64,000 bases of DNA. Origin: Polytrichum commune. Its lineage: Eukaryota; Streptophyta; Polytrichopsida; Polytrichales; Polytrichaceae. The stretch lies in contig OX485804.1 in NCBI GenBank assembly GCA_950295325.1, forward strand, positions 34,782,001 to 34,846,000, given 5' to 3'. The notes under the pieces are model-generated. The model saw only the letters and a list, made by a program, of their open reading frames with translations, was not told the DNA's origin and did no database searches. The position numbers and the translations under genes are program-made. This document shows positions 20,231-39,289 of this stretch, one piece after another (the stretch's first letter is position 1; the number at the start of each line of letters is the position of its first letter).

Positions 20231-20539
20231 CACCGGGGCGATCACAAGCTAGATACTTTTGTAAACCACATGCGGCGTGGGGTTAATTAATTATGGGTCA
20301 TTTATCTAGTTTTCTTGAATAATTGGCACCCTATTAGTGGATAAAATGATACTTTGAGGTATTTTTCAGTACCATATAGGTAAATATTATTTACACCATG
20401 AACTTATTGTATAGACTCTATTTTGTTTGGAAATTGTACCATAATTCAAAATACTGGAATTTTGACACAAGTTGACATTAATTCATAATAAATTGAGGAA
20501 ATACATCAATAGTGTATGCAAATGAAATTGAATGTAACA

Positions 20540-22039
20540 CACGGGGAGGTCACTTAGTGCATTTTAAAAACGACGTGCGGCATAATACAGGGAGGATTAA
20601 AATCATTTGACATAAAAATTATAAAAGAATTCCAAATAATGAAGGGTCCATTAAAAGTACATAAGCCCATTACAAGTAAAATAGATAGGTATAAAATATG
20701 GGCCATTCCCTTTTAGTAAAAATAATATAGGGGCTGAAAATAAGGATCTTAGGATGTATGTTTAGTAGAATCAATTTCGTACGCATGCCTCACGAGGGAT
20801 GGATGAAAAATTACTCATCATTCACCCAAAAATGGATGAAATTGGAAGCCTCAGTACAAAGAACCGGAAATTTTTTGCCAACCGTAGAAGTTGATGGGCA
20901 TTCCATTTACAAGTCAACGTTTGTCTCGCAACTCAATGGTAATGTTTTTCTATCCAAAGATAGATTAGCAAGAATTAAACATAGTATTCATTTCAACAAC
21001 CATGATAATTGTCTCCAAGCAAGATCTTCATGTGGATCAAGTTTGTTATCTATAGGATCTGATTGTGGGGTGCATTTTGTCCAACGGAGCACAACAATGC
21101 TATTGTCAACTGTAAAATCAGCTGCCAAACAAAAAAGGGGACGTTCAATGATTGATGTTAAAGCTGGAAATGCTACTAACATATTGAACGGAGTAGATTC
21201 CAGTTCATGGTGGGTGGGTAGGGTGCAGGCTATGCGGTGGCGCAATGGGAAACAATTTGGAGTAGTTAGGCAAGCGGTTGACCTCCTTGCTCGAACGGAG
21301 GAATCAGGGAGGAGAAATCCTAATAATCCCCACATCGAAGTAATGTTGCAATATTATAGAAAATATCCAGGCCGTAACAAATTTAAGTATGATCACACGG
21401 ATAGCAAATGGATTGATGTAGATTGCATTATATCTACGGTAACCATGAGCTACAATTCTACAAATGAGGTGTACACTCTTGATAGGAATGATTCAGAGCA
21501 ACTGTCCAAGTTTGTGACATAACGAACTATATAAGATTCATGACCAAGCTTAAAGTGTTTCACACTATATGGTTTTGGTCTTCACTAGCATGTAAAGTGA
21601 TTTTGAATAAAGGATTTTTATGGAGCGGGTGTTGTGTTTGTGAACACACTCACAATCTTGTTGTGTTTGTAAACACACACTCAATCATGTTGTGTTCCAT
21701 CCTAAGTCTTCTTTTTGTATTTTCACTTTAAGTTTTTGTACTTGGTTTTTGCAATGGTACGTAATTTTTATATTTTTTTGTTGCCATGCTTTTCCCATCA
21801 CTTTTGCATTGCATACATTCTTAAATTCGGTTTTTTTACTCAAAAGGAATTTAGACTACAAAAAATTTCAATGACATGGGCATTATAAGTAATGGTAGGG
21901 TACAAAAAAATAGGCCATTTTAGAATATTATGTAATTATAGGGAGCTTTTAATTCGTGCCTTGGAGGTAAATAGCCCCTAAACAAATACCCCTCAGCCGC
22001 ACGTGGTACACAAAAATCCTATTGAGTGACCTCCCCGTG
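20540..22039 (+). mobile_element. 1500-bp DNA transposon with perfect 8-bp target duplication
   Basis: Begins CACGGGGAGGTCACTTAG and ends with the inverse AGTGACCTCCCCGTG. Subterminal CGACGTGCGGC (left) and GCCGCACGTGG (right) extend the inverted repeats to about 42 bp with gaps. ATGTAACA is duplicated exactly on both sides (20,532-20,539 and 22,040-22,047). Eight-bp duplications occur in hAT, P and Zisupton/KDZ-type elements; the CACGGGG terminus does not settle the choice. It carries the ORF at 20,758-21,522. A 496-bp deletion relative lies inverted at 38,785-39,280. Confidence 0.85.
20758..21522 (+). CDS. Transposon-borne ORF of unknown function, 254 aa
   Basis: The only sizeable open frame inside the 1500-bp element, ending about 515 bp before its right end. 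I do not recognise the family. The N-terminal half has the stretch VEVDGHSIYKSTFVSQLNG followed by LSKDRLARIKHSIHF. The C-terminal third has WWVGRVQAMRWRNGKQFGVV and KFKYDHTDSKWIDVDCIIST, which look like a compact folded domain; a remote resemblance to BAH-like chromatin modules is only an impression. No DDE or RNase H triad, zinc-finger cysteine array, signal peptide or membrane span was seen. It may be the last exon of a larger transposase whose 5' part is deleted, or an accessory protein. The start ATG is the first in frame and lies in sequence retained in the deletion relative. Confidence 0.5.
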   Translation: MFSRINFVRMPHEGWMKNYSSFTQKWMKLEASVQRTGNFLPTVEVDGHSIYKSTFVSQLNGNVFLSKDRLARIKHSIHFNNHDNCLQARSSCGSSLLSIGSDCGVHFVQRSTTMLLSTVKSAAKQKRGRSMIDVKAGNATNILNGVDSSSWWVGRVQAMRWRNGKQFGVVRQAVDLLARTEESGRRNPNNPHIEVMLQYYRKYPGRNKFKYDHTDSKWIDVDCIISTVTMSYNSTNEVYTLDRNDSEQLSKFVT

Positions 22040-22049
22040 ATGTAACATG

Positions 22050-22640
22050 GATGCATCATTGTCTTGAAACAACCCACCACTATCTTGAATCCCTCATTGA
22101 CCACCCCAAGCTTGCCAACATCTCTATTTGATGACTTTAAATTTATTGAGACAACTTCTCATCCAATCCAAAAACATTCATTGAACCTCACAAAAAAACC
22201 TTTGTTCTTCCAAATATAATAGACCCTAATTTATTGATAAAATTATAAACTTCTTATGTTTTTCACTCAACTTATTATTTAGATATAATATTGTATGGGC
22301 CATTTCATCCAAGCTATAGTAATTCCAAAAAAATTGTAGTTTTTTCTCTCTTGAATGAATGAAAAGTACCCTATATTTTTTTCATGTGGTTTAATAAAAT
22401 TTTAACAGTGACCTCCTTGTGACATTGACTCGCTTATGATTCCATAGATTGAAAGTCACCAAACTTCCTATGTTTACGGTTAATGTAGTGGAATCACATA
22501 AGAAATAACAAAGTAAAATGACCATCATGTGTAGATGTGTCAAACTATGTTCATATACAATTGCAAGGTTTGTACACAAAATATAACCACTGCAAAACTC
22601 ACCTAAACTCTTAAAGGTACACACGTGTCTAATTCAAAGA
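22050..22640. other. Intergenic, no recognised gene
   Basis: AT-rich sequence between the 1500-bp transposon and a family A copy. Short open frames only. Confidence 0.5.
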
Positions 22641-38706: not shown

Positions 38707-38784
38707 ACTTAGAGTGGATGTACATCGGGGTCCAAGACCAAAGAAACTCCAAAGTTGAGTGATCTTATGATCTACTGGTCGAGA

Positions 38785-39280
38785 CACGGGTAGATCACTC
38801 TAAGGCATTTTTGTGCACCACGTGCGGCTGGGTTTTTGTTTTGTTTTGGGGCTATTTACCTTCAAGGGCTGAATTAAAGCCTCCCTATAATTACTTAAAT
38901 TTAAAAAATGGCCCATTTGTTTGCACCCTTCCATTACTTATATTGTCCAAGTCACTGCAATTTTTTGTACTCTATATTCCTTTTAAGTAATTTTGGACAG
39001 ACATAAATCCCAATTATCATCCATCCCGTGAGTCCTAAACCCATTTACATACCATACTAAACATACCTTCTAGGATCCTTATCTTCAGCCCCTATATTGA
39101 TTTTACAAAAAATAATGGCCCACGTTTTATGTCCATCTAACTTACTTATAATGGGATTGTCTACATTTAATGGCCCCTTCATTATTTGGAATTCCTTTAT
39201 AATTTTTATTTCAATGATTTTAATCCTCTCTATATTATGCCGCACGTTGTTTTTAAAATGCACTAAGTGATCTACCCGTG
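38785..39280 (-). mobile_element. 496-bp deletion relative of the 1500-bp transposon, 8-bp target duplication
   Basis: Begins CACGGGTAGATCACT and ends AGTGATCTACCCGTG. GGTCGAGA is exactly duplicated at 38,777-38,784 and 39,281-39,288. The reverse complement aligns to both ends of 20,540-22,039: GCATTTTAAAAAC, CGGCATAATA, ATATAGGGGCTGAA(A/G)ATAAGGATC and ATGTTTAGTA on one side, AGTAATGG(T/A)AGGGT and GGTAAATAGCCCC on the other. Nearly all of the ORF is missing. This is an internally deleted, non-autonomous derivative. Confidence 0.88.
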
Positions 39281-39289
39281 GGTCGAGAG

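Follow-up and report, generated by a model that had tools for sequence, protein, structure and literature searches.

What transposon gave rise to a 1500-bp unit in Polytrichum commune, and what is the 254-codon ORF that it carries? The unit lies in the window (the whole 64,000-nt stretch of contig OX485804.1 analyzed here). The original prediction described it as a transposed unit, recognizable from its clean inverted ends and its exact duplication of 8 bp, whose ORF could be a captured host segment or the end of an undescribed transposase. Longer copies with the same ends were to be sought, and these could have turned out to encode an ordinary hAT or another transposase already known. We examined the boundaries of the unit, its copies across the genome, its longer relatives, and the protein that they encode.

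Boundaries of the element and its flanking DNA

The unit, its inverted ends, its duplication, and its ORF were all confirmed at the positions given in Table 1. Given the base composition, the probability of an exact 8-mer match between two given flanks is ~2.6e-5, so the duplication is not due to chance. When the two flanks were joined and searched against the genome, 40 of 118 candidates were scored. Two of these were the window's own flanks, and the other 38 places matched at 71-80% identity, all spanning the junction, with a length excess over the matched query stretch of at most 28 bp. Since these matches run uninterrupted over the junction, the flanking DNA (~20420-20539 and 22040-22159) is a diverged, dispersed repeat with related empty sites. 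A lone end-like sequence, CACAAGGAGGTCACT, was seen at 22407-22421 on the minus strand, 368 bp to the right of the element and with 2 mismatches; it is possibly a relic of another copy.

Table 1. Features of the 1500-bp element and of a second member of its end family, with positions in the window.
Feature	Position	Strand	Basis or detail
Non-autonomous element, 1500 bp, internal-deletion derivative	20540-22039	+	Ends and long-copy comparison
Left terminal inverted repeat, 15 bp, CACGGGGAGGTCACT	20540-20554	+	15/15 complementary to right
Right terminal inverted repeat, 15 bp, CACGGGGAGGTCACT	22025-22039	-	15/15 complementary to left
Left subterminal inverted block, 12 nt	20570-20581	+	92% complementary to 21996-22007 block
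Right subterminal inverted block, 12 nt	21996-22007	-	Pairs with 20570-20581 block
Target-site duplication ATGTAACA, left copy, 8 bp	20532-20539		Exact
Target-site duplication ATGTAACA, right copy, 8 bp	22040-22047		Exact
254-codon ATG ORF	20758-21522	+	31 codons of former 5' non-coding DNA and C-terminal part of long frame
In-frame C-terminal end of long transposase (predicted), 223 codons from codon 32	20851-21519	+	Includes WWVGRVQAM... and KFKYDHTDSKWIDVDCIIST
Deletion junction, 3-bp microhomology CCT	20849-20851	+	6,996 bp of long copy C absent
Second end-family member, 496-bp MITE, ends CACGGGTAGATCACT	38785-39280		Exact GGTCGAGA flanks
GGTCGAGA duplication of 496-bp MITE	38777-38784 and 39281-39288		Exact

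Copy number and the end family

The assembly searched comprises 408 Mb in 64 contigs, with seven contigs of 42-78 Mb making up ~406 Mb. It holds matches to the C-terminal part of LEAFY at three places, as suits a streptophyte plant. The nucleotide search scored 40 of 1,957 candidates. We found that 39 of them were short-form places, one being that of the window and the rest matching at 96-99%; the remaining candidate was a long copy, copy C. With two short copies obtained by protein search (L004 and L007), the short form is present in at least 41 copies. Thirteen distinct short copies were read (L001-L012 and L016; L013-L015 were dropped as repeats of L001, L002, and L008), and each was flanked by an exact 8-bp duplication different from all others. 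Their mean pairwise difference was 2.1% (range 1.0-3.2%, n = 13), and 90 of the 157 distinct changes among them were G to A or C to T, which fits methylated plant DNA.

Genome-wide, the end pattern CACGGGKAGRTCACT was counted 4,771 times, 2,390 in forward and 2,381 in reverse orientation, and the reversed control gave 0. Many of the first-listed pairs were ~400-560 bp apart and are MITEs; the window itself holds a second member of this end family (Table 1). Exact 8-bp duplications, all different, were found in 22/22 units with both ends (13 short, 7 long, and 2 MITEs). Terminal inverted repeats and a duplication of fixed length, by which a cut-and-paste DNA transposon is recognized, were thus found together. 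No relative was confirmed among 79 pattern stretches in viral contigs and 85 in prokaryote genome contigs.

The deletion junction and the parent copies

At 8496 bp, copy C (C5:40490851-40499346) shares its ends with the element and is flanked by an exact duplication, AAAGGTGC. It matched the element in two blocks, bases 1-312 at 98.4% and bases 310-1500 at 97.5%, which overlap by CCT. Since copy C matches in two blocks and the two forms differ by 6,996 bp in length, the short form is one internal deletion away, and the 1500-bp element is an internal-deletion derivative of a long transposon, related to the long copies as Ds is to Ac. Copy A (C3:23844933-23854635, 9703 bp, exact duplication CATAGACT) has a single open frame of 1491 aa. 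The frame of copy B (8621 bp, exact duplication ATTGTGAC) is cut by a deletion of ~1.1 kb, and that of copy C is interrupted, leaving frames of 342 and 1086 aa. A copy like copy C would have lost its internal DNA through end joining at the 3-bp microhomology. Both ends would have survived the deletion, and the final 223 transposase codons would by chance have stayed in frame behind an upstream ATG.

In a protein search of the genome, the fragment from ~residue 31 on matched the terminal part of frames as long as 1,549 aa. Codons 1-31 of the ORF are former 5' non-coding DNA joined by the deletion, and not transposase. The longer copies with the same ends therefore exist, and in them the ORF is the C-terminus of a ~1,490-aa frame; as far as the libraries searched reach, the end of an undescribed transposase was the correct one of the two alternatives.

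Copies A and C have ~3.5-4.1 kb without a long ORF 5' of the transposase ATG, and these regions share no blastn similarity past the first 229 bp. In L020 the 5' region before the transposase ATG is only ~620 bp. The long 5' region of copies A and C is possibly a 5' intron, regulatory DNA, or nested insertions.

The long family and selection on its frames

A search with the core of the long protein listed at least 92 matches, with 85 of 292 candidates scored. Nine of the 92 listed were free of internal stops and had a stop-to-stop frame of 1,493 aa or more, and one of the nine (L026) had 1,333 aa when counted from its ATG. Full ATG frames of 1490-1509 aa were present in six loci (L018 and L020-L024), which together with two partial proteins formed alignment A1. 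Of the 14 long loci read, 7 had both ends together with exact 8-bp duplications, namely copies A, B, and C, L020 (AATCTAGA), L021 (AAAGAAAC), L025 (ATTTCAAC), and L031 (CTCGTTAC). The ends of L021, L025, and L031 were placed by eye, aided by the matching duplication, and L025 has another end-like sequence at 252 which does not pair. In the stretches fetched for L022, L023, L024, L026, L030, L032, and L033, both ends were not found. Open frames lie within ends and exact duplications in copy A, L020 (1493 aa), and L021 (1490 aa), and the ~1,490-aa protein so encoded is presumably the transposase.

The long copies span 5.8-9.7 kb (8.5-9.7 kb for copies A, B, and C), and the ends found start with CNCGGGG (CACGGGT in A and B). 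Core identity was 34% for L031 and 35% for its near-copy L030 (28% over a longer alignment). Since L031 has the same duplication length and end motif at 34% identity, both features hold over large divergence. The long frames evolve under purifying selection. For L018/L017, dN/dS was 0.10 across 1,086 codons, with 0.16 for the C-terminal part, and L020/L021 had a pN of 0.16 and a pS of 0.83; very close pairs with few changes gave 1.1 (L024/L026) and 0.41 (L018/L019).

An upstream frame of 353-363 aa with two Cys-rich repeats was seen in the most distant lineage, at L031 (5705-6796, minus strand) and L030 (96-1157). The N-terminal frame of L031 had a weak match to ZF-HD_dimer, the dimerization region of plant ZF-HD proteins (E 0.012, below cut-off), which weakly suggests a different DNA-binding N-terminus next to the same core.

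The predicted transposase

Ten long proteins, with a lowest identity of 28%, were aligned (A2). Residues D696, D815, D817, D862, H865, D911, D916, D1022, C1027, H1028, and E1057 were invariant in 10/10. The core string runs ...VPVILAEDET...ARVxxVNPLHxxLPRLVL...(helix)...GPxxGHASDGDSRRR...QDxxHxGKKLxNP...GSDxCExFFS..., which, read by eye, would represent the D of strand 1, strands 2 and 3, a helix, the D of strand 4, DxxH, an insertion, and the E of a helix. The distance from D696 to D815 is 119 residues and that from D815 to E1057 is 242; the latter stretch would hold an insertion domain. From this arrangement, D815 (or D817) is the probable second catalytic D, and D696, D815/D817, and E1057 are the predicted DDE acids of an RNase-H-like core. 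Upstream of the core, alignment A1 revealed the Cys/His patterns CxxC...HxxxxxH (twice, the second CxxC being lost in some rows) and HxxC...CxxC (once). By eye, these patterns in the N-terminal third look zinc-finger-like and may serve in DNA binding.

On the basis of the core string and the Cys/His patterns, the protein is a predicted DDE cut-and-paste transposase which would consist of a zinc-finger-like N-terminal third, an RNase-H-like DDE core, and a conserved C-terminal domain. Its staggered cuts would produce the 8-bp duplications, and the ~1,490-aa transposase of the long copies would have mobilized and amplified the short form in trans. Taken together, we read the 1500-bp element as a deletion derivative, non-autonomous, whose parent is a cut-and-paste DDE transposon that appears to belong to an unclassified P-like superfamily in a plant, with a probability of roughly 0.85. 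The short element itself is ordinary; more interesting is the parent family, which combines 8-bp duplications with a very large unrecognized transposase and has thousands of ends in this one plant genome.

Searches against known families

Two full-length proteins (L018 and L020) had no match in Pfam-A up to E 10 and none in NCBIfam. L018 had no match among PDB sequences, and profiles A1 and A2 had none in PDB. The eight members of A1 gave only chance-level Pfam matches (Thioredoxin_4, Cas_Cas1, and Polysacc_deac_2, E 0.038-0.28). In five partial proteins from distant lineages, every match stayed below threshold: ZF-HD_dimer in L031 was the best, and Angiomotin_C, AT_hook, and Sushi (E 0.078-0.4) were taken as chance. 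Across the 13 full or partial long proteins scanned, no Pfam-A transposase model was matched, hAT, P, KDZ, and MULE included. The standard hAT or other known transposase that full-length relatives could have revealed was thus not seen among the 13 proteins scanned with Pfam and the two scanned with NCBIfam.

The hAT dimerization region (PF05699), Transposase_21 of CACTA/EnSpm (PF02992), and the MULE domain (PF10551) had no match in the scanned long proteins; the genome held at least 150 matches elsewhere for each of the first two and 142 for the third. The motif here is DxxH, whereas CACTA/EnSpm has C(2)C. The KDZ model (PF18758) matched none of the scanned long proteins and nothing in the genome, where its controls gave no match either, and the P model (PF21788) likewise matched nothing in the genome and none of its controls. 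No THAP or P model appeared among the Pfam matches of the scanned long proteins up to E = 10, and an early-diverged P member could lack a detectable match to either.

Three hAT proteins of the same genome were recognized by the Pfam scan. Because they had been picked with the same hAT model, this positive control shows only that the scan works. Profile-profile comparison (hhalign) with the hAT, MULE, and CACTA sets of the same genome gave ~0.1% probability, and since the hAT-versus-MULE control also gave 0.1%, this comparison cannot separate superfamilies. In the titles and opening lines of abstracts searched, a range outside Repbase and most subscription papers, we recognized no existing description of this family.

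Relation to P, hAT, and other superfamilies

Mutator-like elements, a common source of plant MITEs, share the C/DxxH group. Their duplications are 9-11 bp, as against 8 bp here, and the scanned long proteins had no PF10551 match. The hAT elements (Ac/Ds) share 8-bp duplications, short inverted ends, deletion derivatives, and the C/DxxH group, but no hAT dimerization region or other hAT model was matched in the scanned long proteins, and hAT elements are typically under 5 kb (PMC10741241), compared with 5.8-9.7 kb here. Zisupton/KDZ elements share the 8-bp duplications (PMC12730594), but PF18758 found nothing in the scanned long proteins.

In motif order, spacing, and duplication length, the predicted transposase resembles those of P elements. 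P and THAP9 share 8-bp duplications and internally deleted relatives with the family here (PMC7776569 and PMC8230255). According to the same sources, the P acids are D230, D303, and E531; D339 forms part of a D(2)H motif, and an insertion domain extends over 339-528. In P, the D(2)H thus follows the second acid of the triad and the insertion precedes its final E, with 73 and 228 residues between the acids; the family here has D862-x-x-H865 in 10/10 proteins and spacings of 119 and 242. The two differ in that no THAP domain was found here, the N-terminus is zinc-finger-like, a further conserved domain follows at the C-terminus, and the host is a plant. The likeness was drawn from published P features, and no sequence match was detectable. 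P transposase is about half the size of the ~1,490-aa protein.

Two placements of the long copies were considered. One is that they are a divergent hAT or P member which the profile libraries missed through divergence, their size being merely lineage-specific; we rate this a little short of an even chance. The 8-bp duplications and short ends suit both hAT and P, C/DxxH is common to P, hAT, and the family here, and D(2)H, the insertion domain, and the acid spacing suit P. Against this, 0/13 scanned long proteins matched the Pfam hAT, P, KDZ, or MULE models. The hAT target consensus, nTnnnnAn, fits 5/22 duplications (by our own estimate, ~2 are expected from base composition). The other placement follows from the finding that neither P nor another named superfamily showed sequence homology to the family, which makes it a candidate separate superfamily. 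Tentatively, and at somewhat under even odds, the long copies may represent an undescribed plant superfamily characterized by a ~1,490-aa predicted DDE transposase with a zinc-finger-like N-terminus, a P-like string, and a private C-terminal domain, by CNCGGGG ends, and by 8-bp duplications; it would be the plant counterpart of animal P elements.

If the family is separate or P-related, the plant transposon inventory changes, and plants gain a relative of animal P elements. Since the transposase matches no family in the libraries searched, numerous transposons of this genome may belong to an undescribed class. Thousands of short derivatives would then pass as hAT or Mutator MITEs under end-based annotation. 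Ends and duplication length are the common basis for assigning plant MITEs to five superfamilies (PMC12550479), and such sorting would probably file this 8-bp-duplication family under hAT. The long copies with open frames permit direct transposition tests.

The 254-codon ORF

Besides the 254-codon ORF, the longest of the ORFs listed in 20300-22300 was an antisense one of 115 aa. A weak Pfam match of the 254-aa fragment (Chordopox_G3, E 0.19) and its weak matches among PDB sequences (CutA, E 0.051; vav, E 1.3) were taken as chance. Folded alone, the fragment had a mean pLDDT of 30.8, which is too low to inform on its fold.

We consider it unlikely that the ORF is itself functional, for instance as a repressor of the kind represented by KP, which is made by P-element deletion derivatives. 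The frame was stop-free in 6/13 short copies (gaps ignored), and other places in the genome retain only C-terminal stretches (residues 80-254), both of which could speak for a function. However, stops were present in 7/13 copies, and open frames are expected anyway at a mean pairwise difference of only 2.1%. The ORF changes across the 13 copies comprised 44 non-synonymous, 21 synonymous, and 3 stop changes. The protein-altering share was 47/68 (69%) against 74% expected (p = 0.33), which fits neutrality, and purifying selection left no sign in these 13 copies, in a test of limited power.

A captured host segment, the other alternative of the original prediction, was rejected, since the same ends enclose a long frame to which the ORF belongs. 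It is most improbable that the element took up a host C-terminal domain and that the ~1,500-aa protein represents a host gene family rather than a transposase. Its large size, the purifying selection on it, and the lack of a match to recognized transposase models would fit such a family, but in 7 long copies the long frame, open or broken, is enclosed by inverted ends with exact duplications. Moreover, the at least 92 core matches listed are scattered and divergent, and many are decaying, as is typical of a gene that moves itself.

Residues 80-254 alone were matched, at 80-84%, in at least a dozen other places, mostly as frames of 199 aa. These may represent another group of short derivatives, of independent origin, in which the C-terminus is kept.
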